A DNA stretch of 56,408 nt from Methylococcaceae bacterium. GTDB lineage: Bacteria > Pseudomonadota > Gammaproteobacteria > Methylococcales > Methylococcaceae. Where the stretch lies: positions 1 through 56,408 of the forward strand of contig SCQD01000029.1 in NCBI GenBank assembly GCA_004299145.1, read 5' to 3'. The stretch's first letter is position 1, and every line of letters begins with the position of its first letter. Shown piece by piece: positions 2,624-33,392 of this stretch. A model generated the notes under the pieces. It was not told the DNA's origin, did not search any database, and saw only the letters and a list, made by a program, of their open reading frames with translations. The translations under genes and the position numbers were made by a program.

Positions 2624-2657
2624 GCGTTAGGTATGTAACGCCCAGTATTGAGCGTTA
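2624..2657. promoter_or_regulatory. GCGTTA repeat cluster upstream of narG
   Basis: GCGTTA at 2624-2629 is followed by its inverse TAACGC at 2636-2641 and a direct copy at 2652-2657, 30 bp before the narG ATG. Repeated half-sites this close to a start suggest a regulator site. No clear FNR box (TTGAT-N4-ATCAA) was seen in the intergenic region. Confidence 0.3.
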
Positions 2658-2686
2658 GTCGGCAAACCCAAACTCCCGAGGACGAC

Positions 2687-6427: not shown

Positions 6428-6454
6428 TCCATGGCGCTCGTGTGCTCGGTGCTC

Positions 6455-6580
6455 GTTCCCAACCTCCTGGTTGGGAACGCGGCCCGGGAAGCTCCAGCTT
6501 CGCGTCTATGACGCTTTAGCCAGAACAAACGGGAAGCCGGAGCTTCCCAAACCGGGTTCCCAAGCAAGAGCTTGGGAACC
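6455..6580. repeat. Palindromic repeat cluster, copy B (narG-narH gap)
   Basis: Three hairpins fill most of the narG-narH intergenic space: GTTCCCAA/TTGGGAAC (6455-6478), GGGAAGC/GCTTCCC (6531-6548) and GGTTCCCAAG/CTTGGGAACC (6555-6580). No T-run follows, so they are not classic terminators. They could affect mRNA processing and the NarG:NarH ratio. Confidence 0.85.
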
Positions 6581-6635
6581 AGCGGAATCGAAGGATCGCG
6601 CGAATAACCAGCTTAAAACAAAACAGAGGTCCGCT

Positions 6636-8177: not shown

Positions 8178-8827
8178 GCGATCGCTGGTTGATCCTCAAA
8201 GTATTATCGGTACTGCTCAGTTACCCGGAGCAGGCAGCCATAACTGCGCTGGATGAAATGGCGGAAGTCGTGCGCCTGGAACGGCGCTTGGCGCCTGAAC
8301 AGCAAACCGCCCTGCTGGCTTTTATCGACGCGTGGCGTGGCGGCGATTTGCTGGACTTGCAGGCCGATTACGTCGCCTTGTTCGACCGGGGGCGGTTTTT
8401 ATCCCTCCACCTGTTCGAACACGTACACGGCGAATCGCGCGACCGGGGACAGGCCATGGTGGATTTGCTGCAAATGTACGAGTCGCACGGTTTTGCCCTC
8501 GCCGCGCGGGAATTGCCGGACTATATTCCTTTGTTTCTGGAATACCTGTCGCTGCAAACGCCGGCTGTTGCCGTCACCCTGTTGCAAGACGCCATGCCGA
8601 TATTGGGGTTGCTGGGAGCGCGCTTGAACAAGCGCGGCAGTGCTTATCGGGTAATTTTTGATGCTTTGGCCGGCATCGCCGGCGCGCCGGCCGAACTGGA
8701 ACGCCTGCATCGGCAGGCTGCTGAAGAAGGCCCGGACGCCACCGTGCAACACATGGACGAGATCTGGGAAGAAGAAGCCGTCAGTTTCATGGCAAACCCT
8801 GCCGTTTGCCGCTGCGGTGTGGATTGA
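8174..8827 (+). CDS. narJ: Nitrate reductase assembly chaperone (delta subunit)
   Basis: A 217-residue protein of the NarJ/TorD chaperone family, which binds apo-NarG and helps insert the molybdenum cofactor; it is not part of the final enzyme. It starts at a GTG overlapping the narH stop. The typical VLSVLLSYPEQ start and the LADYVALFDRGRFLSLHLFEHVHGESRDRG-type core are recognisable. It should be followed by narI, but here a channel gene intervenes, starting 45 bp downstream. Confidence 0.95.
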   Translation: MSDRWLILKVLSVLLSYPEQAAITALDEMAEVVRLERRLAPEQQTALLAFIDAWRGGDLLDLQADYVALFDRGRFLSLHLFEHVHGESRDRGQAMVDLLQMYESHGFALAARELPDYIPLFLEYLSLQTPAVAVTLLQDAMPILGLLGARLNKRGSAYRVIFDALAGIAGAPAELERLHRQAAEEGPDATVQHMDEIWEEEAVSFMANPAVCRCGVD

Positions 8828-8872
8828 TGCCATGAAGACAAAAACGCGGCAAGAATAACTTTTGGGGTAATT

Positions 8873-10423
8873 ATGGATTTCGTGACTTTTATGGCCGATG
8901 TAAACCGCCATGCCTGGCATGACGAGCTGCCATTGGTATGGTCGATGGTCATAGCGATCTTCGTGGTTGCCGTGCTGCGCCTAAAGCCCGACGTCAAAAA
9001 ATCGGTATTCATCACCGTTGCTTTCTTTCTGCTCAGCCTGCTCGGTTTATTGATCAGCGGGCTGATTTTCTCCCTGGGATTTGAAAGCTGGGGACGCGCC
9101 CTTCACGAAACGTTTATCATCATGGAAGGGATATTCGTAATCCGCCTGGGCGGAATTGTTGTCTTTCGTTTACTGTTGCCTGGGTTGCGCATCAGGCAGC
9201 CGGGCATCCTCGAAGATATTACGGACATTATCGGTTATTGCGCATGGCTGATGGTGCGCTTGCATTACGCCGGCCTGCAATTATCCGACATTATCGCCAC
9301 TTCGGCCGTTATTACCGCCATCTTGGTTTTTTCCATGCAAGACACCCTGGGAAATATTTTGGGTGGATTGGCTTTGCAACTGGATAACTCCATCGACATC
9401 GGCGATTGGATCAGGGTAAGCGATACCGTAGGGCGAGTGGTCGAGATGCGTTGGCGCCACACCGCCATCGAAACCTCCAATTGGGAAACCGAGGTGATTC
9501 CCAACAGTTTGCTGGTAAAAAGCAAATTCACCGTGCTGGGGCGGCGTAAAAATCATCCCCTGCAATGGCGGCGCTGGATACGCTTCAATGTGGGTTATGC
9601 CACGCCGCCGGGCAAAGTCATCAACGCCGTACAGAACGCCGTCAGGGAGGCCCGCATTGCGAATGTGGCGGCCTACCCACAGCCCAGTTGCGTTACCCTG
9701 GACTTTGAAGCCAGTTTCATCCGCTATGGCTTACGTTATTGGCTGACCGAACTGGATGCCACCGATTCCACCGACACTGCGGTACGCTCCCGCATATATG
9801 CCGGACTGCAACGTGAGGACATTTGTTTTTCTTGCCCCGAGTATAACGTGCACGTAACGGAGGCAGGGGGCAGCTATGAACGCGCCAAGCTCAGTAAAAT
9901 CCGCCATGAATGCATACAGGCGCTGCGCAAAATGGAACTCTTCCATTCGCTCACGGAAGACGAGCTATTATTCGTGGCCGGCAGATTGAAATATTCGCCT
10001 TTTGCGAAAGGCGAACTGATTACCCGCCAAGGGGATGCTCCCCACGACTGGTTGTACATTTTGCTGGAAGGACAAGCGGACGTATTTCTGGAATTGCCTG
10101 ATGGCGTGAAGCGCCACGTGGGCTGCATGACAACGGGAAACCTCATCGGAGAAATGGGGCTGATGACCGGCGCGGCGCGTAGCGCCACCGTAATCGCAAA
10201 AACGGACACGATGTGTTACCGTCTGGATAAGGAAACTTTTAAAACAGTATTAACCAATCGGCCGGAATTGGCGGAAGAACTCAGCCGGATTCTTGTCAAT
10301 CGCCGCTTTGCCCTGGATAACCTGCAGCAGGAAGTTGACGCGGAACTGAGCGCCAAACAGCTGACTCAGCAACAAAATAGCATATTGGAAAGAATAAGGA
10401 CGTTTTTTGGTCTGGATGCCTGA
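8873..10423 (+). CDS. MscS-family channel with C-terminal cyclic-nucleotide-binding domain
   Basis: A 516-residue inner-membrane protein. Predicted membrane helices lie around residues 20-37, 44-68, 82-102 and 112-175. The last contains the MscS pore-helix and beta-domain start (MQDTLGNILGGLAL, then DIGDWI). Residues about 355-475 form a cNMP-binding fold with a phosphate-binding cassette carrying Glu427 and Arg436 (IGEMGLMTGAARSATV). This is the architecture of bacterial cyclic-nucleotide-gated (bCNG) MscS proteins, which usually respond weakly to tension. It lies inside the nar operon in the same orientation, 45 bp after narJ and 27 bp before narI, so it is probably co-expressed with nitrate reductase. 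A role in nitrate, nitrite or osmotic ion flow is inference only. Confidence 0.9.
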   Translation: MDFVTFMADVNRHAWHDELPLVWSMVIAIFVVAVLRLKPDVKKSVFITVAFFLLSLLGLLISGLIFSLGFESWGRALHETFIIMEGIFVIRLGGIVVFRLLLPGLRIRQPGILEDITDIIGYCAWLMVRLHYAGLQLSDIIATSAVITAILVFSMQDTLGNILGGLALQLDNSIDIGDWIRVSDTVGRVVEMRWRHTAIETSNWETEVIPNSLLVKSKFTVLGRRKNHPLQWRRWIRFNVGYATPPGKVINAVQNAVREARIANVAAYPQPSCVTLDFEASFIRYGLRYWLTELDATDSTDTAVRSRIYAGLQREDICFSCPEYNVHVTEAGGSYERAKLSKIRHECIQALRKMELFHSLTEDELLFVAGRLKYSPFAKGELITRQGDAPHDWLYILLEGQADVFLELPDGVKRHVGCMTTGNLIGEMGLMTGAARSATVIAKTDTMCYRLDKETFKTVLTNRPELAEELSRILVNRRFALDNLQQEVDAELSAKQLTQQQNSILERIRTFFGLDA

Positions 10424-10450
10424 CTGTACCCGCCATGAAGAGATTGCTCC

Positions 10451-11128
10451 ATGAATAACTTTAATACTTTCTTGTTCGGCTATTATCCCTATATCGCCGC
10501 CACCGTGTTCCTGCTCGGCAGTCTGGCCCGTTTTGAGCGGGATCAATTCTCCTGGCGCAGCGGCTCCAGCCAAATGCTCAGCAGCAAAGAACTGCGGCGC
10601 GGCAGCAATCTGTTCCACGTCGGCATCCTGCTGCTGTTCTTCGGCCACGCTTTCGGTCTGCTGACCCCACCCGCCGTGTACCACGCTTTCGGTTTGACCA
10701 CTTCAGCCAAACAGATACTGGCCGTCATCGCCGGCGGCATTTTCGGCGGCATCTGCTCTGCCGGGCTGTATATTCTGCTGCGCCGCCGCCTGACCGATCC
10801 ACGCATTCGCGCCACCAGCAGCCGCATGGATATATTCATTCTGGGTTTGATCGCCTTGCAATTGATGTTGGGCTTGCTGACGCTGCCGGTTTCGCTGTTT
10901 CACCTGGACGGCAATAATATGCTGCTGTTGGCCGAGTGGGCGCAGCGCATCGTCACTTTCCAGAGCGGCGCGGCCGACGTCATCCTCAGCGTCAACTGGC
11001 TGTTCAAACTGCACTTGTTCTTCGGCATCACCCTTTTTCTGGTGTTTCCGTTCAGCCGTCTGGTGCACATCTGGAGCGTGCCGCTGGCTTATCCGCTACG
11101 GCCTTATCAGGTGGTGCGCAGGCGGTAA
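10451..11128 (+). CDS. narI: Respiratory nitrate reductase gamma subunit (cytochrome b)
   Basis: A 225-residue membrane cytochrome b with five helices that oxidises quinol and passes electrons to NarH. The four haem-ligand histidines are present: His in FHVGI and GHAFG in helix 2, and His in KLHLFFG and LVHIWS in helix 5. The length matches E. coli NarI. It is displaced from narJ by the MscS-type gene, which is unusual for narGHJI. No narK transporter is in the window. The next gene is convergent and its stop lies only 5 bp away. Confidence 0.97.
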   Translation: MNNFNTFLFGYYPYIAATVFLLGSLARFERDQFSWRSGSSQMLSSKELRRGSNLFHVGILLLFFGHAFGLLTPPAVYHAFGLTTSAKQILAVIAGGIFGGICSAGLYILLRRRLTDPRIRATSSRMDIFILGLIALQLMLGLLTLPVSLFHLDGNNMLLLAEWAQRIVTFQSGAADVILSVNWLFKLHLFFGITLFLVFPFSRLVHIWSVPLAYPLRPYQVVRRR

Positions 11129-11132
11129 CCCA

Positions 11133-11912
11133 TCATCCCAAAAACTCCCGCGCAGCCTGCAGAAATGCTTCCGGCTGATCAACGTGCAGCCAGTGCCCAG
11201 CGCCATGCAGGGTGCGAATATGGGCGTGGCAAAAATGCCGGCCGATGGCGGCATAGTGCTCTGGACGCACATAATCGGATCGTTCCCCAGCCAGAAACAG
11301 GGTTGCCCCCTGGTAGGGTGGGAAGTGGTCGATGGCGGGGGCGGCCAGCAGTGCCGGCAGGTTGGCACGAATCGATGGCAAGTTGACGCGCCAACGATAA
11401 CCCGCCGACGTGGTAATGAGGTTTTGCAGTAAAAACCGGCGTAGCGTGGCCTGCGGAATAGCGGCAGTCAGGCGGGCGTCGGCCTCCTGCCGGCTGTTGA
11501 GACCGGCCAGAGGCAGTGCTTCCAGGGCATCCAGCAAAGGCTGGTGGTGGTCGGGATAGTCAGCGGGTGCAATGTCGGCCACCAGCACGCGCGATACCCG
11601 TTCGGGATGCGCCATGCTGAGATGGATGGCCAGCTTGCCGCCCATGCTGTGGCCGATAACGTGCGCGGTAGGCCATTGCAGCGCGTCCAGCAGCGCCAGC
11701 ACATCAGCGGCCATGCTGGGGTAATCCATGACATCGCGATGAGGGGAAGCGCCGTGATTGCGCAAATCGGGTACGGCAACCCGAAACCGGTCACTCAGGC
11801 ACTGGGCAACAGCGTGCCAATTTCGCCCACTACCCAATAATCCGTGCAAAATCAGTACAGTCGGCCCCGTATCTCCAAAACAGGCATGGACCAGCGGCAC
11901 CGGCGACTTCAC
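11133..11912 (-). CDS. YbfF-like alpha/beta hydrolase (esterase)
   Basis: A 259-residue protein when started at the GTG at 11912, which overlaps the upstream stop (GTGA) and gives the usual family length. A longer frame upstream is only read-through of the neighbouring gene. The oxyanion segment LHGLLGSGRNW, nucleophile elbow GHSMGG, catalytic Asp in LAGERSDYV and His in LHGAGHWLHVDQP are all present. It resembles E. coli YbfF, an acyl-CoA/ester hydrolase whose physiological substrate is uncertain. It is last in a three-gene unit after the ParA-like and membrane-protein genes. Confidence 0.88.
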   Translation of the reverse strand: MKSPVPLVHACFGDTGPTVLILHGLLGSGRNWHAVAQCLSDRFRVAVPDLRNHGASPHRDVMDYPSMAADVLALLDALQWPTAHVIGHSMGGKLAIHLSMAHPERVSRVLVADIAPADYPDHHQPLLDALEALPLAGLNSRQEADARLTAAIPQATLRRFLLQNLITTSAGYRWRVNLPSIRANLPALLAAPAIDHFPPYQGATLFLAGERSDYVRPEHYAAIGRHFCHAHIRTLHGAGHWLHVDQPEAFLQAAREFLG

Positions 11913-13076: not shown

Positions 13077-13107
13077 CGTTACCGTGGAAAGTCGCGGCAA
13101 CCTTTAC
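13077..13107. repeat. Short dispersed repeat, copy 1
   Basis: A ~30-bp sequence containing CGTTACCGTG and GCAACCTTTAC that recurs almost unchanged at 48888-48917. Here it covers the last few bases of the giant sensor gene and the gap before the ParA-like gene. Confidence 0.6.
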
Positions 13108-16100
13108 CCCATGTTTTGCAACATTTGCGTGACTTCTTCGGCTGCCGCGGGTCTACTGAAAATATACCCCTGTATTTCATCGCAACCGTTATCGCGCAAA
13201 TATGACAGTTGATCCTGGGTTTCGACGCCTTCGGCTATGACGCTGAGTTTTAAGCTTTTGGCAATGGCGATAATGGTCAGCACGATTGCGGCGTCGTCAG
13301 GATTGGTATTGACGTCGTGGATAAAGGACTGATCGATTTTCAGCTTGTCGAACGGCAGATTTTTCAGCTGACTGAGGCTGGAATAGCCCGTGCCGAAATC
13401 GTCGATGGATATGGAAATGCCGGTTTTTTTCAAATATTCCAGGGTTTCACGGGTTCTGAGCGGCTCTTTCATCACCACGCTTTCCGTCAACTCCAGCTCC
13501 AGATACTCCGGCCCCAAACCACAATCGCCGAGAATTTTCATGATTCTGTCGGCAATGTCTTCTTCTTCAAATTGGCGGGCCGAAAGATTAACCGCGATAC
13601 GCAGCTTGGGCAGCCCCATTTGCTGCCAGACTTTATTTTGCCGGCAAGCTTGACGCAGTACCCAATCGCCGATAGTACTGATCAAGCCGGTTTCTTCCGC
13701 CGCTGGAATAAACTGGATGGGCGGTACCAGCCCCAGCTCGGGATGGCGCCAGCGTATCAACGCTTCCATGCCGACGATACGCCCGGTTTGCTGGTTGTAT
13801 TGCGGCTGATAGTTCAAGAAAAACTCGCCGCGTTCCAATGCCCGCCGCAAATCGCTTTCCAGCTTGAGTTTCTGGGAAACCGCCAGTTCCATGCTTTCTT
13901 CGTAAAACCGGTAAGTATTGCCGCGCTCTTTGGCGCGAAACATGGCGGTATCGGCGTGTTTGATCAAAAGCCCTGCATCCACCCCATCGGCGGGGGAAAT
14001 GGAAATACCGATGCTGGCGCTGATATAAAACTCTTGTCCCTGAATTTTGAAAGGTCTGTTGATGGCCGTGCATATCTTGCCGGCAACCGCCGCCGCCACC
14101 TTGGGATCACTGATATTTTCCAGCAACAAGGTAAACTCGTCGCCGCCAAAGCGCGAAACCAAATCACCCACGCGCACACAGCCCTGAATGCGCATGGCGG
14201 CCGATTTCAACAGTAAATCACCGGCTTCGTGCCCCAGGGTGTCGTTGGTCAGCTTGAAACGGTCGAGATCCAGCACCAGCACGGCGTGCATTTGCACTTC
14301 CTGCTGGGCATTGTTGAGCGCTGCATCCAGCTTTTCCATAAATAAAGCCCGGTTCGGCAAGCCGGTCAGGACATCCTGATAGGCAAGGCGGCTGGCATGC
14401 TCTTCGGTGCGGCTGGCATCCAATAAACGGGCAACCCGCTGACGCAGCACCGAAAAATGTACCGGCTTTGGTATATAGTCGGTAGCACCGGCCGCAAACG
14501 CCAGTTCGATGGAGCGATCATCCTCCAGCGCAGTAACGATCAAAATAGGCGTGCTCAGGCCGTCCGGCAGCGCCCGCAGCCGTGAACAAACCGTGAAGCC
14601 GTCCATTTCCGGCATCCTGGCATCCAGCAGCACCAAGTCGGGCATGGAGTGTTCACAGACCGACAGCGCTTGGGTTCCGCTGCTGGCTTGCTCGACCCGA
14701 TATCCGTCTTTTTTCAGGATGTCGCACAACGCAAAGCGTATGGTTCGGTCATCATCGGCAACCAATATATAGGGCTTGGACCGCTCCTCGTCGTCCAGGC
14801 GTTCCTGGTTGTTGTGGATTTCTTTCAGCAAGGCCGCCTTGAGCAAATCGAACTCGATAACGGCGCTGTTATAGAGCTCTTCGATACCTTGAATCTGCGC
14901 ATTGCGGCCGCGTTCTTCCAGCTGCCGAACCACTTCGATCAAGCGATTGGCGCCCAGGCTCTTGCCGGCGCCTTTGATACAGTGGGCGAGTTCGGCGACG
15001 CCGGCGGCGTCATGGTTGGCGATGGCGTGCTCTATCTGTCGCAACTGAGCCGGTGTATCTTCCAGGAAAAACTCGACCATTTTGGCAAATGCGTCGCCAA
15101 TGTCGTTTTTGAGTTCTTGCAGCACTTTGACGTCCAGCAATTGTTCGACAGATTCGGCTGCCTGCGGGGCTTCTTCGGCAACGGGTATTGCTGGTTGAGC
15201 GGTTTTGGCCTGATGCAGCCAATGTTCGAGCTTGCCGCGTAAAGCGCTGAGTTTCAAAGGCTTGGCCAGATAATCATCCATGCCGGCGGCCAGGCAGCGC
15301 TCGCTATCGCCTTTTTGCACATTGGCGGTCATGGCGATAATCGGCACATGGCCGGTGGTATTTGCCTCCGCTGCCCGAATGCGCCGTGTCGCCTCGTACC
15401 CATCCATTTCCGGCATGTGGCAATCCATCAGGATGACGTCGAAAGTGCGGCGCGCCATCAAATCCAAGGCTTCACGGCCGGTGGAGGCCAGTTCGATGCG
15501 GCAGCCGATTCTTTCCAGCATGGCCAGCGCCACCTGCTGATTGGGGCGATTGTCCTCCACGACCAGTACGCGGCAACCCAGATAAATCGCATGATCACGC
15601 TGGGGAAACAGCGGCAGAAATGGCTTGACGCCGGATTCCGCCGATACGATGGTGTCGTATAACAGTGAGGCTTGCACCGGCTTACTGACGGAACCGGCGA
15701 TATTGGCCAATTTCGGTAGTGGTTTACCGGCATGTGCCTGACTGTTCAGCAAAATGACCTTGACCGGAGCGGCGGTAGGGTCGTCCAGCATGTCCTTGGC
15801 CAGCTGGAGGGCATGATCGTTGAGTGCGGACTGATCGATGATGGCGTAGTGGTAAGACTCGCCGCGCAGTACAGCAGCGCGCAGGGTTTCCAGCGCGGTT
15901 TCCGTGCTTGCCATGCCGGGGTTGGGGATATCCCAGCTTTGCAGCATGTTGCAGAGAAAGCGGCGAATTCTTTCGTGGTCGGCGACGACCAGAAAGCGCA
16001 ATTTGACGATGTGAGACTGGTTGGTGCGAATGCTGCCGGGGGTTTCCCTGGGCTGATCGAACGGCAGGGTGAAACTAAAGCGGGCCCCCACCCCCGGCTC

Positions 16101-17567
16101 ACTTTCGACGCTCAGGCTTCCGCCCATGAACTCCACCAACTGGCGGCATATCGCCAAGCCTAGACCAGCACCGCCGTATGCTCGGGTAGTCGAGCCATCC
16201 ACTTGGAAAAAAGCATCGAAAATGTGCTTTTGAGCGGCACGCGGGATTCCTATGCCGGTATCCAACACTTCAAAGCGCAGGAAAAAGTGATCCAGGGTGG
16301 CACGCAAGAATTCGACATGTATTTCCACGCCGCCTTGCTTGGTAAACTTAACGCCGTTGCTCGCCAGATTAATCAATACTTGGCGCAGACGCGTCGCTTC
16401 ACCCCGCAATGTCATGGGAACTTCCCTATCGATGTCGTAGTGCAGGTACAAGTCTTTGCTTTGTGCCTGGGCGGACAGCAGGCAGACGATTTCTTCCAGC
16501 ATTTCGTGCAGCACGAAATCGACCGACTGCACTTTGTTCATGCCGGCGCCGATGCGGGAAAAATCCAGAATGTCTTCGATCAGCTTCAGCAGCTGATCGC
16601 CGGCAGTGTGGGCTACCGTCACAAACTCCAGTTGCTGGGCATTAAGCCCCATGTCGCGCAGCAATTCCAGCATGCCCAGCACAGCGTTCAGCGGCGTACG
16701 CAGTTCGTGGCTGACATTGGCGGCGAACTCGCTTTTCATGCGGGCGGTTTCCACCGCCGTATCGCGCGCACTGACCAACTCGGACTCGCGGGATTCCAGG
16801 GCTTCCATCATCTGATTGAACGCCAGCTCCATCTTGATGATGTCTTTCGGACCTTTGATGCTGGCGCGCACCTTGCCTTCACCCGTTGCAGCGCACGCCA
16901 TGGCCTGGGCCAAATGCTTCAACGGCGTGGTCAGGCGCTTGCTGACGGCCACCACGACCAGCATGAAAAAAAAGGCAAAAGCGGTGGCGGCGGTCAGATT
17001 GGTGGACAAGATGCTCTCATCCATGGCTTTCAAGGTTTCCTTGCTCATCACCAAACGCACGTACCCCATCAGCTCGGGTTTGCCTTGGGTGGTCAGAAAA
17101 GGTGAAGCATGTCCCTCGACGTGCACTTCGGAAAACGAGTATACCGGCGACACAAAATACCAAGAGGATGCCGTCTCCTGGTCTACCCGCAAGTTCTCCG
17201 GCCATTGCAGGCGGTCGGGAAACGCCGTGGTGGCGTCCCCCTGCTCGAACAAGGGCTGGCGGTTGGCGTCATAAATCGCGACGCCCTTCACGCTGGGAAA
17301 GCCGAGTATGGTCTGCGCCGGTTCTTTGGCGTTTTCAGCGCTGGCATACAACAAAGCCAGGGTCGATTGCTCTGCAAAAGTCTGAGTGGCCTGCTGGCCC
17401 TGTTCGACCAGCTTGGCACGGACAATATCGCTGGTCAGCGTGGCGATGGCCAGTGACGATACCAGTGCCAGACAGAAAATTCCGGCGGAAAAAGTGAGCA
17501 GCAATTGCTGCAAAAAATTGGGGCGCAACTCGGATAACCAGACGCGGATGACCAAGGGGATGTTCAT
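13104..17567 (-). CDS. Hybrid sensor kinase / phosphorelay / GGDEF-EAL protein
   Basis: A 1487-residue inner-membrane signalling protein. In order: membrane helix (~20-45), periplasmic sensor (~46-185), second helix (~188-210), HAMP, HisKA with His287 (VSHELRTP), HATPase (DTGIGIP, GGAGLGL), a degenerate receiver (~522-640), a full receiver with Asp715, an HPt domain with His862 ([10 protein letters not shown]), a third receiver with Asp982, GGDEF (RFGGDEF at 1139-1145, with an RVGD I-site at 1132-1135) and EAL (MEALIRW at ~1267, DDFGTG at 1389-1394). All catalytic motifs for phosphotransfer, c-di-GMP synthesis and hydrolysis look intact, so which activity dominates is open. It begins 17 bp after a periplasmic binding protein gene, which probably supplies its ligand signal. 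Confidence 0.95.
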
Positions 17568-17584
17568 GGTGATGTGCCTCCCTT

Positions 17585-18541
17585 CTATCTGGATGCCGGG
17601 AAAACCAGATCAAACTTCTGCCGCTCTTGGCTTTCGAAGCGTAACCCCAGGTGTTCAGCCGTGCGAATATTGACCGCGAGCAATAAATCGCGCAGAGGTT
17701 CGATGCTGCCGGTCTTGGCGGTCCCGTTTTGCAAGCGGTTGCGTGCCATCACACCCAGGCTGCGCCCCATTGCCGTGTTGTCGGGATACATGGAAAACAA
17801 AGCGCCTTTACGCACATGGTCGGGGTTGCTTGAAAACACCACCAGATTGCTGTCCCAGGCATCTTTGAGAATAACCGGCAACAACGTGCGTTCGTCGGTG
17901 ACGGCGTTATCCTGCAACAGCCAGATAGCGCTGCCGGCGTCTTTGGACTCGTCCAGCAAATTGCGGTAATGCGCCGCTGCGCTACGCACGTCTTCTGCGG
18001 GCAGGGCGTTGAGTTGCACCCCGAGTTCCTTGGCCACCTTGCGGGCTTTGTCGATCTCCCATTCGTTGCGCTTGGGGTCATACACCACTGAAACACGCCG
18101 GATATCGGGTACCAGCGCTTTGAGCTTTCCAAGCATGGCTTCCGGGTCAGGCGACAGGGTAATGCCCGACATCCCCGGTTTTTCCACGTCGGGCGAAATG
18201 AAGGCGGCGCCCACCACCACGGGCATGGCATCGCTCAACATTCTGGCGGATACCAAGCCGGCTCGCCCCAATGTGATGGCGATCGGCACGTGATCCTGTT
18301 CCAGCTGCGCCTTAACCGCATCGCCCTCAGCGTCCTCGGCCAGAACGTACGGCTTTACCGGTGCTTTAAAACCCTGCTCGATACCATTGATAATCTCCTG
18401 AAATACGGTACGGAATGGATCGCGCAGATCCGGATACACCACGGCCACTGCAACGCCTTCGGCCCGCACGGCGGCGGACGCGCAAAAAGCGGCCAGCGCT
18501 AGAGCGATCAGCGTGGCGCGGCATAAATAACGGTAGATCAA
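17585..18541 (-). CDS. Periplasmic binding protein (ABC_sub_bind family)
   Basis: A 318-residue protein starting at TTG with AAGGACG upstream. A signal peptide ends around AAVRA-EG (residue ~28). The body resembles the ABC transporter substrate-binding protein family PF04392 (TrpX-like): [50 protein letters not shown]. No ABC permease or ATPase gene is present in the window. Its stop is 17 bp from the start of the giant hybrid kinase gene, an arrangement expected if the protein senses a small molecule and presents it to the kinase's periplasmic domain. The ligand is unknown. Confidence 0.85.
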
Positions 18542-18637
18542 TCGACTACGTCCTTGAATTTCTGGTTTTCAGAATTAGGGGCAGAAACAGATAATATTGC
18601 GTCAATAACTATCAGCGATTTATAACTATATGATTGT

Positions 18638-19666
18638 CTATGGCTTCCTTCCACTGACAATGCTCCAATAGCCAGATGTCGGCGAAACAACTATATCGAC
18701 AAAACCTGCGCCCTTGAGAACAGCCGTCAACTCCTGCCCTGAATATTGCCTACCTTCCGTCCATAACAACATGGAAACACTCGCGGCAGCCGCCATAAAC
18801 GGGCCAGTCTTATCATCGAAATAAAGTACTTCATGAATGATGATTAATCCGCCTGCTGGAAGGCTGTCATAGCTTTTTTGCGCTAAAAAACGGCATTTCT
18901 CTTCCGACCAGTCGTGAAAAATTTGGGAGTAAAAATGCACATCAGCGAATGGGTAAGGCAATTCCCAAAGATTGCCGCGAGATGTTTTCATTCTACCGCC
19001 AAGTCCATATTGCGCGATAAAGTCTTCCGCGACTTCGCAGACCGGCTCAATATCCAGAACAATCGCTTCGAGCTGCGGCCACCTTCGCAACGCTCCGATG
19101 GCGTGGGCTCCAGAACCACCGCCGATATCAAGCAGACAGCGATGATGCGAAAGCTCGATATGGGATGGCCAGACCAGCGCAGGAGCCATGCTGATGCTGT
19201 GCATGACTTTAGTAAAAGCTTTTGCGCGTTCTATTTGTTGTTCGTGCGACTGGAAGACATCATCTCCCCCATAAGTTTGCGGTTTATTGGTAAGCACCGC
19301 CTGCTTCAAACTATTAACCGAAGTAATAAAATCATTTTCTACAATTTGGTCCAGCACCCCGCCAAAGTAAGTAGGACTGTCTTTCAAAAGATAGTCCTCG
19401 GCAAGGGCGGTTAAGGCATAAGCATCGGCTTCAGTTTTCCTCAGCATGCCGAGAGCAAGATTGGTCAACACTACGGCTTCGGCTGGGCGTTCGGCGATAT
19501 TTAATGCTTGTGCTATTTGCCGGAGTGATAGAGGATTGTTGTGTAGCAAAGGGAATAAATTAAGCTCATGGGCAACTACCAAAGCCGGATACCCCATCAG
19601 ACCGGACATGATATCCCACAAGAAACGAACATCGCTACGGGGCATTAGTGAGTCATCGGCAACCAT
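18638..19666 (-). CDS. SAM-dependent O-methyltransferase (family 2)
   Basis: A 342-residue protein from the ATG at 19666; a TTG nine codons upstream is also in frame. An N-terminal dimerisation/winged-helix region (NLFPLLHNNPLSLRQIAQAL) precedes a Rossmann methyltransferase with SAM motif LLDIGGGSGAHA and a later LPAGGLIIIHEVL. The fold matches the hydroxyneurosporene/acetylserotonin O-methyltransferase group, which methylates small hydroxylated molecules. The substrate is unknown. By eye it looks more AT-rich than its neighbours. It follows the TonB receptor gene by 33 bp, so co-transcription is likely. Confidence 0.85.
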   Translation of the reverse strand: MVADDSLMPRSDVRFLWDIMSGLMGYPALVVAHELNLFPLLHNNPLSLRQIAQALNIAERPAEAVVLTNLALGMLRKTEADAYALTALAEDYLLKDSPTYFGGVLDQIVENDFITSVNSLKQAVLTNKPQTYGGDDVFQSHEQQIERAKAFTKVMHSISMAPALVWPSHIELSHHRCLLDIGGGSGAHAIGALRRWPQLEAIVLDIEPVCEVAEDFIAQYGLGGRMKTSRGNLWELPYPFADVHFYSQIFHDWSEEKCRFLAQKSYDSLPAGGLIIIHEVLYFDDKTGPFMAAAASVSMLLWTEGRQYSGQELTAVLKGAGFVDIVVSPTSGYWSIVSGRKP

Positions 19667-19699
19667 GTTTTTTATTCCCAAGTTTAGAAGCAAAAAGCG

Positions 19700-21856
19700 C
19701 TAGAAATTAAAGCGAACTTCCCCATAAATAGTGCGGCCGGCCAGCGGCAAATCATTAAGTATTGGAGCAACTGGAACTCCTGCTAAACTGGGTTCCCGTG
19801 CGTCGACATCGAACAAATTGCGTATTGAAAACGCCACTTCCCAGTGCTGCGCCAAATGCTGGCGGCGCAACGTCAAGTCGGTCAAGGCATAGTCCGCAAC
19901 GGTAGGGCGGGTGTCGCCGAATACCCGATCACGCCCGACGATCCATTTGACTTGCGGGCTGAAATGCCACTGCGGCATAAACTCCCAGTTGGCGCGCAAA
20001 TAGACCTGGTGACGGGGCGAATTGCCCGCGCTATAGTCCAGCGTATCGTCAGTGGACTGTTGCCAGGAATAATTACCGACTATTTTCAATTCATCGCTGG
20101 CTTTCCACTCTGCTTCCACTTCGCTGCCGTAACCGCTTTGCGTGCCGGTATTCTGGGCTACATTGTTGCTGCCGTCGGGTACATAGCGAATGATATCTTT
20201 CCACCAGTAATGAAACAGGTTCCAACCCAGGCGCAAATCGCCGCGGAGGTGGTAATCAAAAGCCAGTTCCATCGTGTCCATGGTTTCTGGTTTAAGATTT
20301 GGGTTGCCGACAGCCGGCGGATTATTTTTGTTATACATTTCTGCAAATGATGGCGCGCGGTAGGCGCTGCCATAAAGCAGTTTTGTGGTGAGATTATATC
20401 CGGTCTCCCAAACCAGTCCCCCGCGTGGATTGACAGTACCTCCAAAATCAGAGAAGCTGTCGTAGCGCGCGCCCAGAATCAATTGCCAATCTCTGGCAAA
20501 CCTCCATTCGTCCTGTAGAAAAACATATTGATTGTGACGGCTTTGCGGTTGCATGAAAATTACCGACGAACCGGTTGCACTGGTTACAGGTTGGCCTGGA
20601 AGATAAGGGATGGGTTGAAAAGTGAGCGGGTCAAGGCCGAAATTCTCCGACGCCTTTACCTGATATATCGTGCTGTAGTTATACCCTGTCCCTACGCGAA
20701 ATCGGTGCGAATCTATCCCACTGTATGTCCCCGACACATTAAAGCGCGCGTGGCGCTCATAAATTTCAGGGTTGCCGATATACCCGGCAGGAAACGTCAC
20801 CATGCCCATGGGATCGCTGAAGTTCAATTGCCCATCGGCGCCGATCGGCAGCAGCGTGCCGGGCGGCAGCAAACGGTTAAGGCGATTTTCGCCTTCGTAG
20901 GTGGTATCCAGATAACTCAGCTGTCCTTGCACGGCCCAGTCATCGGTAAACTTGGCGTTGTTGTATGTCAGGTCGGTATTCCAGCGGTCGCTGGAAAAGC
21001 GCGCGTCCGGCGTCAAAGCCTGGGCCATGCCGACGCCCAAGCCAAAGTTTTGCCGGCGCTGTACGCCAGCGCGCAGCCGCCAGTGTTCGCGCGACAGGTC
21101 GATGCGCGCATCGAGATTATCCCGAGTCAAAGTGAGCGGTCCCGGCGCCAGCGAGGCATTGGAACCCAGCGCGGAGTCCAGTACGGTCTGCTGGTCGGCG
21201 TCGATGATGCGCTGCTGGCCGTCGGTGTTGTGGTATTCCACCATGGCCGCCACGTCAAACCCGGCCCAAGTCTCGCCGTGCAAGGCCCAGCCGTCGTAGG
21301 TATTGAAGCTGCCGACGCGCCCGCCCACTTCGGTGCCGCGAATCTCTTGCTTGGTTTTGGTGATGATGTTGATCACGCCGGCGGAAGCATCGGCGCCGTA
21401 TACCGCCGAGCCGGGACCGCGGACGATTTCGATGCGGGAAATGGCCTGCACCGGCATGCCGCCCCAGATGAGGTTGCGGTCCCCCTGGTAAGAGTTGGTG
21501 ATGGGGATGCCGTTGATCAGCATCAACACTTGCTGATTAAGCATAGAGTTGACGCCGCGAAAAGTATAAATTGGGTTGTAACCTATAACAGCATTGCGCG
21601 ATACGTGCAACCCCGGCACGGTTTCCAGCGCATCGTCGATGTCAGTGGCGCCGATGGCCTTGATGTCCTCGGCGGTGATGACGGTGGTGACCGCCGGCGC
21701 GGTACGAATGGGCTGTACGCGCCCGGTGGCGATGCTGATCAATTCTTCGTTGCCGTAGATGGTCAGCAATTCCTTTTCGTCGACACTGAGCGCTTCAGCG
21801 TGCAGCGCACCGCTGCCAAACAGCAGACAAAAAGCGAAGCGGGTCAATTTGATCAT
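19700..21856 (-). CDS. TonB-dependent outer-membrane receptor
   Basis: A 718-residue protein with a signal peptide (cleavage near LHA-EALS), a plug domain (PAVTTVITAEDIKAIGATDI, then PGLHVSR, FRGVNS, IEIVRGPGSAVYGADASAG) and a 22-strand barrel ending in an aromatic residue (GEVRFNF), as needed for BAM assembly. It resembles siderophore/vitamin B12-type receptors and lacks the extra N-terminal signalling domain of FecA-like transducers. The gene lies between the citrate-synthase-like pair and the methyltransferase, so it may import a molecule related to those enzymes. The ligand cannot be read from sequence, and no TonB/ExbBD genes are in the window. Confidence 0.93.
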   Translation of the reverse strand: MIKLTRFAFCLLFGSGALHAEALSVDEKELLTIYGNEELISIATGRVQPIRTAPAVTTVITAEDIKAIGATDIDDALETVPGLHVSRNAVIGYNPIYTFRGVNSMLNQQVLMLINGIPITNSYQGDRNLIWGGMPVQAISRIEIVRGPGSAVYGADASAGVINIITKTKQEIRGTEVGGRVGSFNTYDGWALHGETWAGFDVAAMVEYHNTDGQQRIIDADQQTVLDSALGSNASLAPGPLTLTRDNLDARIDLSREHWRLRAGVQRRQNFGLGVGMAQALTPDARFSSDRWNTDLTYNNAKFTDDWAVQGQLSYLDTTYEGENRLNRLLPPGTLLPIGADGQLNFSDPMGMVTFPAGYIGNPEIYERHARFNVSGTYSGIDSHRFRVGTGYNYSTIYQVKASENFGLDPLTFQPIPYLPGQPVTSATGSSVIFMQPQSRHNQYVFLQDEWRFARDWQLILGARYDSFSDFGGTVNPRGGLVWETGYNLTTKLLYGSAYRAPSFAEMYNKNNPPAVGNPNLKPETMDTMELAFDYHLRGDLRLGWNLFHYWWKDIIRYVPDGSNNVAQNTGTQSGYGSEVEAEWKASDELKIVGNYSWQQSTDDTLDYSAGNSPRHQVYLRANWEFMPQWHFSPQVKWIVGRDRVFGDTRPTVADYALTDLTLRRQHLAQHWEVAFSIRNLFDVDAREPSLAGVPVAPILNDLPLAGRTIYGEVRFNF

Positions 21857-21973
21857 GCCTTTCCCCCCTGATGTTTACGTTGGCGCTCAACCGTCAAGCT
21901 TGGCTTAATCATAACACCTGAATTTTGCCGGCGTAAAACTGCTGTGCGCATCAGCTTACGGTATCACCGCGCT

Positions 21974-22789
21974 TTAAGGCGTATGCCAGCGCCGCCGCGC
22001 GGCTCCGTTATAAACGATGCGCGTGCAGCGCAGCGGAAACAGCGTGCCTTCAGTCTGATCGATGGCATCGATGTGGCACGGAAACATGCCGCCGGCAAAG
22101 CAGGGGATCATGAAACGATAGTATTCACGGCAGGACAGCCCTTGGTCGGCGGCCAGCGCCGCCAGCAGTGCGGCGATGTTGATGTGCAGACGCCAGCGCC
22201 AACGCTTGCTCAACAGCACGTCTTCGATGGCAAAAGCCAGGCGTATGTGGGCGCCGCCGGCATACCCCAGTTCCTGGGCCAAAGCCAGCATCGGCGCGAT
22301 GCGCTCGTCCTTTTGCTTGATGGGCCTGCCGTAACCGAAGATGCCTTGGTGGATTTCCAGTTCTTGCTGCACGAGTGTGGTTAAATCCATCCCCTGCTCA
22401 AGCTGCTGCTGAAAGCGGTACAACATGTCGATGCAGCGTATAACGGCCCGAAATCCGTATATCGTGGATTCGGAAATCGCCGTGGCGGCGCTGATGCCCA
22501 GCGTCGCCGTGCTGCGCGCCGTGCCGGCCAGCGCCGCCACTCGATTGTTCCAGATGCGCGGATCGGGATAATTGGCGCACAGCTTCCACATACCCTCGAA
22601 CAGGCGCATTTGATTTTCGTCGAACACGCGCCCGGTAATGGCGTAAAGCAGCAATCCCATCCAGGATAACTCCTGGAAATCCTCGAATACCGCTTTGCCG
22701 CGCAAGATGGCCCCCCGCTGAGGAAACCACGCTCCCATGCTGGTCACCCAATGGTCTTCGCTGGCAAAAAGTGCTTCCGGGCCGCGCAT
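21974..22789 (-). CDS. Short citrate-synthase-fold protein, subunit B candidate
   Basis: A 271-residue protein, much shorter than citrate synthase (~430) and close to citryl-CoA lyase size. The SWMGLLLYAITGR, DPRIWNNRVAALAGTARS, GYGRPIKQKDERI and PLRCTRIVYNG segments line up with successive motifs of the citrate synthase family. At the position of the catalytic Asp (the PNVDF motif) the protein reads LHINIAA, so that Asp appears replaced. It starts 28 bp after the other short citrate-synthase-like gene, with GAGGACC as ribosome site. The two probably form a heteromer in which this chain may lack part of the active site. The reaction is unknown; citryl-CoA-type cleavage or condensation is a guess. 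Confidence 0.65.
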   Translation of the reverse strand: MRGPEALFASEDHWVTSMGAWFPQRGAILRGKAVFEDFQELSWMGLLLYAITGRVFDENQMRLFEGMWKLCANYPDPRIWNNRVAALAGTARSTATLGISAATAISESTIYGFRAVIRCIDMLYRFQQQLEQGMDLTTLVQQELEIHQGIFGYGRPIKQKDERIAPMLALAQELGYAGGAHIRLAFAIEDVLLSKRWRWRLHINIAALLAALAADQGLSCREYYRFMIPCFAGGMFPCHIDAIDQTEGTLFPLRCTRIVYNGAARRRWHTP

Positions 22790-22817
22790 CTGATGGTCCT
22801 CTTCAATAGGCTGCGAG

Positions 22818-23624
22818 TTATGAAGGAGTGCCTGGATCGTCGACTAATTCCAGGCCATCCGCAAAAAATGGAAAACGCCGCCAGCCATAGCCTTTTTGTT
22901 CCAGGGCATGCACAGCGGCGCCGGGCAAGCGCAGCCAGAGATATAACATTTCGGCTTGATCACTGTCCAGCGCTAAATCGATCATGGCGGCGGCGGCCAC
23001 GCCGCTCATGGCCAGTGGACAGCCTGCCGTGGCTTCCAATGCCGCTCTGTGTTCATGCAGCCAGCCCAGCGCGCCGACGACACCGCAGTCCGCCAGCGCC
23101 GCCAACGTCCGGCGCACGGGAGCGGCGCAACTTGCACCGTGGGGATCAAAGCCGGGCGGGTGCTCCATGGGCAACCAGATATCGGCGCGCTCTTCCACGG
23201 GCGGATGTTGCAGATATTCCCGCCAAGCCGGCAGATCCTGCCCACAAGCCTGCCAAATGCACAGGGCGCGCGCCACTTCGTGGGCGCCGCCCAGTTGGCC
23301 GGCGCCCACCGCCAGCGCAGCCATCAAACAGGCGGCGTGGGTGGCCCCGCCCACGCCTCCGCACATCGCCGCGTGCACGCTGGCTTCCCTGGGGCCTGGA
23401 TTGGTCAGGGCGATGGCTAAAATTTCCAGCAGCCTGGCCTGGCCTGGGCTGGGTCTTTCTCCTTTGAACAACAAATACAGATATTCGATCCAACTTGCCT
23501 GCCCCAACACATCGCCGTACACATCGTAGCCCGAGCAGTAGCATGCAGCAGCGGCAAAAGGATTGTCCGCCTCGGGAACTTCTTCCCAAATCCGGCTATG
23601 AATGACTTCCTGTGGCTTACTCAT
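22818..23624 (-). CDS. Short citrate-synthase/citryl-CoA lyase-fold protein, subunit A candidate
   Basis: A 268-residue protein with family-like features: SGYDVYGDVLGQASWIEYLYLLFKGE near the N-terminus, GPREASVHAAMCGGVGGATHAA, and HPPGFDPHGASCAAPVRR at the place of the GHRVY...DPRA motif. It also ends in an RLPGAAVHALEQ segment that recalls citryl-CoA lyase. Its ATG overlaps the stop of the ThDP enzyme gene by 4 bp (ATGA), and a second, divergent copy of the fold follows 28 bp later. Tight coupling suggests one pathway or complex. It could be a citryl-CoA lyase-like carbon-carbon bond enzyme. Fold assignment is moderate; the substrate is not known. Confidence 0.65.
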   Translation of the reverse strand: MSKPQEVIHSRIWEEVPEADNPFAAAACYCSGYDVYGDVLGQASWIEYLYLLFKGERPSPGQARLLEILAIALTNPGPREASVHAAMCGGVGGATHAACLMAALAVGAGQLGGAHEVARALCIWQACGQDLPAWREYLQHPPVEERADIWLPMEHPPGFDPHGASCAAPVRRTLAALADCGVVGALGWLHEHRAALEATAGCPLAMSGVAAAAMIDLALDSDQAEMLYLWLRLPGAAVHALEQKGYGWRRFPFFADGLELVDDPGTPS

Positions 23625-25435
23625 GAATCTCCCCCCAACACTTTAATGCGCGTGGATATCGGCGGCACTTTTTCTGGGTCGATGCGCACATCCAACAAAG
23701 TCGGACCCGCCCGTTGACAGATACCATTGATATCCAGGTTGTTCAAATCTTGCGGAGACCGAATGATATGTCCTTCAGCTCCCATGGTTTTGGCATAGGC
23801 GCAATAGTCAATTTCCGGTAATGCAAAAGCGATGGGCTCCGCACCGCCCAGACGCTGACCATGCTTCACCATGCCCAGCGCAGCATCGTTGAGTACCACA
23901 AAAATTACCGGCAGTTTTTCTTGTATCGCCACGGTCAATTCCTGACCGCTCATCAGCAGACTGCCGTCTCCGGTGATGCAAACCACGGGAAAACTTAGGT
24001 TCCCTAAAGCGGTGCCGATGGCCGCACCGATGGCCCAACCCATGGAATTAAATTCCAGGCAAGTTCGAAACACACCGGAATTCAGGTGCTGCTGACCGGT
24101 CAGGCCTTGGCTGCAAGAATGTAAATAGTGAATAGCCCATGCTTGACCGCTACCTGCATCAACCGCAAACCGGGTATGAATAGGAAATAATCGGGCCAAC
24201 AGCCTCATTAGATGCTGCGGACTGATCGGGGTGGCGTCGGAATCGTAACTTTCCTGGTCATCCAATTTGAACGGCAACCCTGTTGGGGATTGATGAGGGC
24301 GAGGAGAAGTAAACGGCGGTGCATCGGCAAATGAGCCGGACCTGGTTTGATCCAGCGCCAACGAGTGCTGCACCCGTTCAAGCAGAAGTTGGATGACCGT
24401 TGCAACGTGACCCCGTACGTGCAGTTTGGCCATGGGGGAATGTGTCAGGTGCTCTTCGTTGACGTCGATATGAATCAAGCGACTGTTGAGCACTGCGTCA
24501 TAATCCCAGCCGTTACTTGCCCACTCGCCGAGATTGGTGCCGATGGCGAGTATGGCATCCACCTGCGGATCGATCAGCGCATCCCTAGCGCTGCTGTGCC
24601 CGCCGAAACCGATGATGCCGCGAAACAGCGGATGGTAGGCATCGATCAGGCCTTTACCGTGCGGGGCAGCCACCACCAGCGCATTTATTGTGGCCGCCAA
24701 TCCCAGAATGTCGCCAATGGCTTCGTTACACCCCGCGCCTATCATCATCACCACTTTTTTGGCCTGGGAGACGTGCTCGAACAAAGCGTCGATTTCGCCG
24801 CTGTCAACCAGCGCCGAGCGGGTCAGCAGGTTGTTCAAGTCAAAGCTGGGGCCCGTCTGAGCAATCCGGCTCTCCAAAATGTCTTTGGGTATGCTCAAGT
24901 GCACCGGCCCCGCCGGTAATCGAAGAGCGGTTAGTATGGCGTTGAAAAGCTTGTGTTCAAACTGGTCGGCGTGGGATACCAGGGTATTGTAGCGAGTACA
25001 GTGTTGAAACATCCCTACTGTATTGATACCGGTGCAAGACGATTCTTGCAAGGCATTTCTGCCGAAATGCGATAAAGCCGTTTGCGCCGTAATCACCAGC
25101 ATGGGTATCTGGTTGGCATAAGCTGACGCCACGCCGGTGAGCAGATTGGTCGCGCCCGGGCCGGTGGTCGAACAGCACACGCCCAGCCTGCCGGTTTCCC
25201 GGTAATAGCCATCCGCCATGAAAGCCGCGCCGGTTTCGTGCCGGGCCACGATGGCCCTGGGGCCGCCCTGGCGCTCGCTGCGCGCCAAGGCATTGTATAA
25301 GCCCTCTATCGCACCGCCCGGCACGCCGAACACGAAATCCACCGACAATTGCCGCAAATAATCGAGCAATAGATCAGCGATGGTTTTACCGGGCTGCAGC
25401 GCCGGATTTTTTTCAGCGCACTGCGCTTGGGACAT
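23621..25435 (-). CDS. Thiamine-diphosphate-dependent decarboxylase/carboligase (acetolactate synthase-like)
   Basis: A 604-residue protein started at the ATG at 25435, which has GAGGAACC upstream; the frame stays open 56 codons further without family similarity. The N-terminal Pyr domain has FGVPGGAIEGLY and the activating Glu in RHETGAAFMADGY. The C-terminal PP domain has GDGSLLMSGQEL, then LNDAALGMV, the Mg-ThDP motif. It is a member of the acetolactate synthase / sulfoacetaldehyde acetyltransferase / oxalyl-CoA decarboxylase superfamily. No acetolactate synthase small subunit or ilv gene is adjacent, so valine synthesis is unlikely. The ATGA overlap with a citrate-synthase-like gene suggests a dedicated pathway. 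The specific reaction is unknown. Confidence 0.85.
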   Translation of the reverse strand: MSQAQCAEKNPALQPGKTIADLLLDYLRQLSVDFVFGVPGGAIEGLYNALARSERQGGPRAIVARHETGAAFMADGYYRETGRLGVCCSTTGPGATNLLTGVASAYANQIPMLVITAQTALSHFGRNALQESSCTGINTVGMFQHCTRYNTLVSHADQFEHKLFNAILTALRLPAGPVHLSIPKDILESRIAQTGPSFDLNNLLTRSALVDSGEIDALFEHVSQAKKVVMMIGAGCNEAIGDILGLAATINALVVAAPHGKGLIDAYHPLFRGIIGFGGHSSARDALIDPQVDAILAIGTNLGEWASNGWDYDAVLNSRLIHIDVNEEHLTHSPMAKLHVRGHVATVIQLLLERVQHSLALDQTRSGSFADAPPFTSPRPHQSPTGLPFKLDDQESYDSDATPISPQHLMRLLARLFPIHTRFAVDAGSGQAWAIHYLHSCSQGLTGQQHLNSGVFRTCLEFNSMGWAIGAAIGTALGNLSFPVVCITGDGSLLMSGQELTVAIQEKLPVIFVVLNDAALGMVKHGQRLGGAEPIAFALPEIDYCAYAKTMGAEGHIIRSPQDLNNLDINGICQRAGPTLLDVRIDPEKVPPISTRIKVLGGDS

Positions 25436-33011: not shown

Positions 33012-33392
33012 TCAAGCCGTTTTATCACCCTCTTTGCCCGCGAACTTTGCTTTAAGGTGTTCGATTTCAGCCAAGGCGGCCTCTTTTTCCAGTATGGCGG
33101 CCTTTTTTTCCAGTATGGCAGCCTCTTTTTCCAGTATGGCGGCCTCTTTTTCCAGTATGGCAGCCTCTTTTTCCCGCATAGCCTGGTTTTCTCGTTGCAA
33201 AGCGATCTCTTTTTCCTGCAATGCAGCTTGCTCATGCAATAACGCTTGCCGCTTGGCTTCACGTTCCTCTTCCATCTCGCGCTGGATGGATCGCTGCTGG
33301 CGTAAATAATTCTGACGCGCTTGATAGGCGTGGTAGTTGCGTTCTTTTTCAGAGAATACACAGTCGATCTTGGGGTCTATGTGGTGTTTCAT
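33012..33392 (-). pseudogene. Rpn-type nuclease gene collapsed by internal deletion
   Basis: A 126-residue frame. The first 13 residues (MKHHIDPKIDCVF) match the start of Rpn/PD-(D/E)XK recombination-promoting nucleases. The chain then jumps straight to the C-terminal coiled coil typical of the same proteins (SEKERNYHAYQARQNY onward). The whole nuclease core of ~200 residues is missing while the frame is kept. Residues ~71-105 are a run of AAILEKE heptads encoded by 21-bp tandem repeats. The start overlaps the hpnN stop (ATGA), so it may still be translated as a coiled-coil peptide. Nuclease activity is not possible. Confidence 0.65.
33076..33180. repeat. 21-bp tandem repeat, five units
   Basis: Five consecutive 21-bp units begin at 33076, 33097, 33118, 33139 and 33160, each like GGCGGCCTCTTTTTCC followed by AGTAT with one or two changes. 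They encode the heptad AAILEKE on the minus strand. The count is likely to vary between strains. Confidence 0.9.

Follow-up and report, generated by a model that had tools for sequence, protein, structure and literature searches.

A minus-strand gene cassette links a ThDP-dependent enzyme and two citryl-CoA-lyase-like chains without the catalytic triad to a TonB receptor and a GGDEF-EAL sensor kinase, and may make and sense a small molecule

In this work we have analysed a stretch of 56,408 nucleotides from a Methylococcaceae bacterium (contig SCQD01000029.1; hereafter the window), which carries the following genes:

23621..25435, minus strand: ThDP-dependent enzyme (TPP), acetolactate-synthase-like (ORF list, Pfam/NCBIfam; nearest solved relatives BbmA and CsmA)
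22818..23624, minus strand: CS1, citryl-CoA-lyase-like chain without the catalytic triad, 268 aa
21974..22789, minus strand: CS2, second citryl-CoA-lyase-like chain without the catalytic triad, 271 aa
19700..21856, minus strand: TonB-dependent receptor (TBDR), Plug and barrel (ORF list, Pfam); conserved neighbour
18638..19693, minus strand: O-methyltransferase (Methyltransf_2), optional part, also in L028, L083 and L211
17585..18541, minus strand: periplasmic binding protein (SBP), ABC_sub_bind, PF04392; conserved neighbour
13104..17567, minus strand: hybrid sensor kinase of 1487 aa, with sCache_4 region, HisKA, HATPase, receivers, Hpt, GGDEF and EAL

The ORF list confirms that the ThDP, CS1 and CS2 genes are packed as the initial annotation had described them, with a 4-bp overlap between the first two and a 28-bp gap between CS1 and CS2; the ATG at 25435 is the start given there for the ThDP gene, and a TTG-started frame extends to 25603. 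The family calls made at that time are borne out by Pfam and NCBIfam, which agree for all three chains, and the TonB receptor and the O-methyltransferase do come next in the same orientation. The two genes beyond them on this strand, absent from that annotation, encode the PF04392 binding protein and the GGDEF/EAL hybrid kinase. Neither the ORF list nor the domain search revealed a permease gene in the run 13104-25435.

The ThDP enzyme is predicted to be active, its ThDP-site residues being intact: the TPP_enzyme N, M and C domains all score above the Pfam cut-off, the catalytic Glu and the Asn are present in 91 of 91 distinct relatives, and the window protein carries the motif GDGS...N. It falls short of the thresholds set for the acetolactate synthase and ScyA families, reaching 292 bits on TIGR00118 (acetolactate synthase, cut-off 538), whereas another gene of the genome, the true ilvB, reaches 853 bits. 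Since the genome has separate true copies of both ilvB and gltA, a housekeeping role of either kind is ruled out for the triplet. The best solved matches by sequence are BbmA and CsmA (8x3x, 8x3z; 393 and 345 bits), and a Gly occupies the position of the IlvB Trp, which is also the case in BbmA. BbmA, CsmA, ScyA-related enzymes and acetolactate synthase have the same domain set and ThDP residues, but the window enzyme comes together with CS1, CS2 and a sensor. The products of BbmA and CsmA were not found in the accessible portions of the open-access literature, and the available part of PMC12247030 mentions none of CsmA, BbmA and ScyA.

CS1 and CS2 find their nearest matches in citryl-CoA lyase (PRK06224) and Citrate_synt, with every score under the curated Pfam and NCBIfam cut-offs: on PF00285 they score 24.8 and 18.2 (cut-off 27), and on NF004866 46.4 and 45.5 (cut-off 245). 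Citrate synthase and citryl-CoA lyase use a His, His, Asp catalytic triad. With identical proteins removed and near-identical ones kept, as in the TPP set, the Asp is retained in 0/90 distinct CS1 and 0/92 distinct CS2 sequences, the first His in 5/90 and 0/92, and the second His in 1/90 and 0/92. The Asp had been reported missing from the second chain only; it is indeed missing from CS2, but CS1 lacks it too. Neither chain keeps the triad, and the argument for divided roles, with one active and one dead chain, is therefore unsupported. The two chains align over 224 columns and fall into separate clades, in a tree that carries the program's long-branch warning (the further trees were quick ones), and by sequence they are old paralogues of citryl-CoA-lyase-like type. 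The view that they are two different chains is upheld; a split or frameshifted citrate synthase is ruled out by two full-length, open and colinear paralogues, by the two clades and by the separate gltA of the genome. The predicted CS2 model superposes on the citryl-CoA lyase structure 6hxp with TM 0.66/0.69 and rmsd 7.5, and the low-confidence CS1 model (pLDDT 59.7) matches the fold weakly, with TM about 0.5. Compared with citryl-CoA lyase (PRK06224; Hydrogenobacter 6hxp), CS1 and CS2 are alike in length and sequence profile and may be alike in fold, to judge mainly from the CS2 model, but they lack the triad, occur as two paralogous chains together and lie far under the family cut-offs.

Our survey shows that the synthesis genes are linked to receptor and sensor genes in the same-order, named and divergent loci. 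In a sample of 369 genomes of the window's class, CS1 was found at E <= 1e-20 in 41; CS1 and TPP coincide in 39, with CS1 only in 2 and TPP only in 9. Carriers include a methanotroph, Marinobacter, Hahella, Cycloclasticus and Collimonas. Same-order genomes keep TPP-CS1-CS2-TBDR-SBP-kinase wherever the contig is long enough, with the exception of G003. As named loci we took the 80 best among at least 252 confirmed relatives, and 48 of these 80 have enough flank; here TPP and CS2 each stand beside CS1 in 48/48, which supports the earlier proposal that the triplet is a functional set. Among the same 48 loci a TBDR is found in 47, an SBP or YfiR-like protein in 45, a kinase in 45, GGDEF in 40 and EAL in 41. 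Control stretches contained a TBDR in 0/20, a kinase in 3/20 and GGDEF in 2/20. Receptor, periplasmic protein and kinase occur together in 44/47 named loci of at least 19.5 kb and in 0/20 controls, a small control set drawn at round coordinates from nine same-order genomes, whereas the named loci span wider taxa; chance neighbourhood is made unlikely by this comparison. The same-order and named sets share some contigs (L033, L058), so the 64 loci compared with the control are not all independent. ORF picking masked genes lying under longer opposite frames, and CS1 and TPP went unlisted in L181, as did CS1 in L223.

The methyltransferase is an optional part of the cassette, seen in the window, L028, L083 and L211, and within 6 kb in 1/80 of the named loci (the best 80 of at least 252 relatives). 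A molecule that is made, modified and re-imported had been suggested; that it is made and taken up again fits the conserved TonB receptor, but the modification step is optional. Because the other conserved neighbours encode a periplasmic binding protein and a sensor kinase, sensing is a better match than simple re-import.

Divergent relatives retain much of this association. One deep lineage has the same parts in another gene order. In 13 divergent CS1 genomes, a set that excludes L227 to L229, L224 to L226 and L210, CS2, a TBDR and a kinase/GGDEF/EAL match were each found in 12; TPP lies within the locus in 7 and elsewhere in the genome in 5 more, so that it is outside the locus in 6/13, and G818 has no such TPP in its genome. 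A TBDR was not in view at L122, L224 and L215, and no kinase or GGDEF was found near L092, L103, L122 and L222. In a second such lineage, the L178 type, TPP-CS1-CS2 stands beside a Ser/Thr-kinase/AAA/GAF/histidine-kinase protein and a LuxR-type regulator, with no TonB receptor in the stretch inspected. Some loci have YfiR-like proteins and CHASE8 sensors (L129, L217), the YfiR-like protein preceding a CHASE8-GGDEF-EAL protein in L217. The weak matches L227 to L229 are citryl-CoA-lyase-like genes without the cassette, and two weak plasmid matches are annotated as citryl-CoA lyase, the neighbourhood having been inspected for one. Of 33 genomes that encode a close relative of the SBP, 20 have the TBDR-SBP-kinase module but no CS2. 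These modules fit listeners, but the ligand there may be something else, since CS2 is absent from those genomes.

We favour, with modest confidence, the interpretation that the cassette synthesises a small molecule and then senses it, acting on c-di-GMP, the triplet being its synthesis half. What is directly established is that the genes exist and are conserved as neighbours, that both chains have lost the triad, and that receptor modules occur where the synthesis genes do not; the nature of the product, how it is exported and what binds it are the conjectural parts. Judging by the family it belongs to and by its intact ThDP-site residues, the ThDP enzyme would couple two small carbonyl compounds to give an acyloin-type or alpha-hydroxy-beta-keto-acid-type intermediate. 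CS1 and CS2, probably together, would act on this intermediate or hold it without the standard His/His/Asp chemistry, and in some lineages a reductase or methyltransferase may complete the product. The linkage suggests that the product leaves the cell and comes back through the TonB receptor, after which the PF04392 protein, or the YfiR-like one elsewhere, may deliver it to the kinase's periplasmic portion. The domains of the kinase suggest that a phosphorelay would set the GGDEF-EAL output and hence c-di-GMP.

Known signalling systems offer partial parallels. In CqsA/CqsS and LqsA/LqsS, which are alpha-hydroxyketone signalling systems, the gene for a PLP-dependent synthase lies near that for a hybrid sensor kinase; the arrangement is similar here and an alpha-hydroxyketone-like product is conceivable, but the cassette has a ThDP enzyme and a CS pair, with a TonB receptor and a periplasmic protein en route. 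The Rpf/DSF system likewise combines a synthase (the crotonase-type RpfF), an Hpt-containing hybrid kinase and an output through c-di-GMP; it differs in synthase family, and the cassette adds a receptor route via TonB receptor and binding protein and carries GGDEF-EAL inside the kinase itself. The three core proteins match only TPP_enzyme domains and Citrate_synt, and not a PLP-dependent or crotonase-type synthase. In YfiBNR-type control of c-di-GMP a periplasmic protein stands beside a membrane sensor, as do the YfiR-like proteins and CHASE8 sensors of L129 and L217; here, in contrast, synthesis genes and a TonB receptor accompany them, and the window has a PF04392 protein, not YfiR. A further candidate considered was the tundrenone cluster of methanotrophs. 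No description of the cassette was found in the open-access literature, as represented mostly by the beginnings of abstracts.

One objection to the make-and-sense interpretation is that a TonB receptor seems unnecessary for a product as small as an acyloin. The triplet might instead make a metallophore- or cofactor-like hydroxycarboxylate that binds a metal or scarce nutrient, the receptor importing the complex and the kinase reporting supply. TonB receptors commonly take up metal chelates or other ligands that are large and scarce, and the receptor is present in 47/48 loci, but the run has no permease gene, the sensor kinase comes directly after the binding protein, and the L178 type lacks the receptor in the stretch inspected; we regard this explanation as unlikely. 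It is also improbable that receptor, binding protein and kinase detect an outside compound to which the three enzymes are the metabolic answer: the receptor module does exist without the enzymes in genomes lacking CS2, but the enzymes rarely occur without a sensor (present in 45/48 of the named loci, from the best 80 of at least 252, and in 12/13 divergent loci), they keep one even when it is of another type (L178), and as a catabolic pathway three enzymes would be unconvincing when the run holds neither a permease gene nor other degradative genes. We consider it very improbable that a heteromer with divided roles carries out ordinary citryl-CoA-lyase or citrate-synthase chemistry: citryl-CoA lyase is nearest by sequence, and by predicted fold for CS2 and weakly CS1, but the Asp is retained in neither chain, the two His are nearly or wholly lost, and the scores of 45 to 46 bits face a cut-off of 245.

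More tentatively, and as a proposal we hold to be about evenly balanced with a slight lean against it, the cassette may be an undescribed, widespread chemical-communication system, in which the ThDP enzyme and the triad-less CS pair, with chemistry new to its fold, would make a signal read through TonB receptor, SBP and a kinase acting on c-di-GMP, and to which receiver-only relatives may listen. If the make-and-sense interpretation is right, about 1 in 9 genomes in the sample of the window's class would carry an unstudied signalling cassette, and the citrate synthase fold would gain a job without its catalytic triad. The system would lend itself to experiment, with its short synthesis operon, defined receptor, c-di-GMP readout and natural relatives that have the receptor module alone.

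Our analysis shows that the presumed synthesis genes are three packed open reading frames, and the ORF check bore out the coordinates, overlap and gap that the initial annotation had given for them:

25435-23621, minus strand, ThDP-dependent, acetolactate-synthase-like enzyme (TPP)
23624-22818, minus strand, short citryl-CoA-lyase-like chain CS1, 4-bp overlap with the TPP gene
22789-21974, minus strand, second such chain CS2, 28-bp gap after CS1

On the same strand beyond CS2 lie a TonB-dependent receptor (TBDR), an O-methyltransferase, a PF04392 periplasmic binding protein (SBP) and a 1487-aa hybrid kinase bearing an sCache_4 region, HisKA, HATPase, receiver, Hpt, GGDEF and EAL domains, with a CHASE8 match below the cut-off. 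The best reading, which we hold to be somewhat probable, is a make-and-sense cassette whose output is the control of c-di-GMP, with a presumed product, a presumed exit from the cell and presumed binding steps throughout. The window corresponds to contig C339 in a draft genome of 4.6 Mb that has two above-cut-off genes of the AMO/PmoA family (0 of 14 control genomes have any), and the host is probably a gammaproteobacterial methanotroph. At 33012-33392, also on the minus strand, lies a short frame whose protein repeats the unit KEAAILE and looks coiled-coil-like by eye.

Searching 301 genomes of the window's order gave CS2 in 24, and the fetched stretches keep the order TPP-CS1-CS2-TBDR-SBP-kinase wherever the contig is long enough, genome G003 excepted; some have an extra reductase or methyltransferase gene. 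The best 80 of at least 252 confirmed relatives in named organisms include Marinobacter, Hahella, Collimonas, Porticoccus, Cycloclasticus and a Planctomycetota MAG, among others. In the 48 of these 80 loci with flanks of at least 6 kb and 8 kb, CS2 adjoins CS1 (48/48), TPP lies within 3.5 kb (48/48), and a TBDR (47/48), an SBP or YfiR-like protein (45/48), a kinase (45/48), GGDEF (40/48) and EAL (41/48) accompany them; the TBDR is absent in L122, and kinase or GGDEF in L092, L103 and L122. For the control, twenty 20-kb stretches were taken at round coordinates from nine same-order genomes; a TBDR match occurred in none, a kinase in 3, GGDEF in 2, EAL in 2 and TBDR plus kinase in none. By the same scan, TBDR, periplasmic protein and kinase occur together in 44 of the 47 loci of at least 19.5 kb from the best 80, and in 61 of 64 once same-order loci are added, the two sets sharing some contigs. 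The product of such loci could instead be metallophore-like, which we consider unlikely.

Close SBP relatives (at least 200 bits) were found in 33 of the 301 order genomes, 20 of them without a CS2 match. Stretches fetched from ten of these 20 hold TBDR, SBP and kinase, whole or partial, with no TPP or CS genes in view; six are flanked on both sides (L164, with its kinase split over two frames, L168 and L171 to L174) and four are short contigs (L165, L166, L167 and L169). A quickly built tree of 37 SBPs places the 12 rows without linked synthesis genes, including L163 and L170, second modules in CS2-carrying genomes, among synthesis-linked ones, with 5 label changes. This pattern fits producers and listeners, and just as well a receptor module whose ligand is a different one. 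It is also conceivable, at a slightly lower probability than a metallophore, that an outside compound is sensed and the enzymes provide a metabolic answer. L163, on the host's own contig C22 (8860-14328), has a second SBP, 49-50% identical, followed by two TBDRs that share 63% and 78% identity with that of the window, with no TPP, CS1, CS2 or cassette-type kinase adjoining.

The window's ThDP enzyme matches all three TPP_enzyme domains in Pfam, and a profile of 18 relatives found BbmA (393 bits) and CsmA (345 bits) as best solved structures. All 91 distinct relatives keep the catalytic Glu and the Asn of the ThDP site, and in all 91, as in BbmA, Gly stands where the IlvB motif MVRQWQ has its Trp. 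This Trp governs acceptor choice, and the acceptor pocket here may be wider. The enzyme is not IlvB itself: it scores 292 bits where the family cut-off is 538, a mark that a different gene of the genome passes with 853.

For both CS1 and CS2 the nearest family in profile comparison is citryl-CoA lyase, and the two are paralogous (hhalign over 224 columns, E 8e-6). Their tree resolves into two supported clades, each with 23 rows; subject to the program's long-branch warning, the split is older than the differing gene orders. The CS2 model (pLDDT 72.5) superposes on citryl-CoA lyase 6hxp with TM 0.66/0.69, and CS1 gave a weak model (pLDDT 59.7, TM about 0.5, rmsd 10). The two His and one Asp that are the catalytic residues of the fold were scored by aligning the chains with an annotated citryl-CoA lyase (L052) and an unannotated relative (L185). 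Among 90 distinct CS1 sequences, 5 retain the first His, 1 the second and none the Asp; among 92 distinct CS2 sequences, none retains any of the three. The initial annotation was right that CS2 lacks the Asp, but the loss is not peculiar to CS2. In CS2, Tyr takes the first-His position in 86 of 92, and Arg155-Pro156 and Arg163 are conserved in at least 97% of rows, as are Trp150, Gly158-Phe159, His239 and Glu242 of CS1, the last two being shared with citryl-CoA lyase. Judged by these residues, the pair would have either altered chemistry or no catalytic role; ordinary citryl-CoA-lyase chemistry with divided roles, as in the heteromer originally proposed, is very improbable.

A prediction from the proposed make-and-sense arrangement was also tested: out of 369 sampled genomes of the window's class, the 13 whose CS1 is divergent (E between 6e-23 and 1.4e-36) were fetched. 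CS2, a TBDR and a kinase, GGDEF or EAL match each occur in 12 of the 13 loci; L222 has no sensor in view in its fetched stretch. TPP lies in 7 of the 13 loci (in pieces in L220), and five of the six genomes without it there encode a full-length TPP relative elsewhere (644 to 871 bits), the sixth, G818, having no TPP relative. The exception L215 shows a lone CS1-like gene (9429-10346) with no CS2, TPP or TBDR in view; its genome, G882, carries CS1, CS2 and TPP on three separate contigs. A further locus of the sample, L224, whose CS1 is less divergent, is flanked on either side by kinases, with no TBDR in view. At thresholds of E at most 1e-20 for CS1 and 1e-100 for TPP, 39 genomes have both, 2 CS1 only, 9 TPP only and 319 neither, as raw counts uncontrolled for shared ancestry. 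G003 (L210, L029) has a broken cassette: TPP, a reductase gene and CS1 are consecutive, but CS2 is split into two parts that lie some 0.5 Mb from each other.

The architecture varies among lineages. Marinobacter lipolyticus (L129) has a YfiR-like protein, a CHASE8 histidine kinase and a receiver-GGDEF-EAL protein upstream of TPP, with a convergent TBDR; a deep lineage (L176, L179, L180, L182) has the order TBDR-CS1-CS2-TPP-SBP-kinase; and in another deep lineage (L178) TPP-CS1-CS2 stands beside a LuxR-type regulator and a 1727-aa protein that combines Ser/Thr-kinase, AAA, GAF and histidine-kinase regions, frames of like appearance being present in L175 and L181. Optional genes encode a short-chain dehydrogenase (L043 to L047, L123), a methyltransferase, an AMP-binding enzyme (L175) and an asparagine-synthase-like protein (L216). 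In L106 (Geobacter sp. MAG, 2514-11610), CS1 (59%) and CS2 (47%) are close relatives, but the divergent operon carries another kind of TPP (34%), closer to the L176 type, as well as a distant TBDR (29%), a PF04392 protein and kinases.

We found no description of this gene set in an open-access collection of papers, subscription papers being mostly outside the search. Synthase-plus-sensor signalling systems include CqsA/CqsS, LqsA/LqsS and Rpf. The putative make-and-sense cassette would resemble these in kind, pairing a synthase with a sensor, but differ from them in its synthesis proteins and its receptor route.
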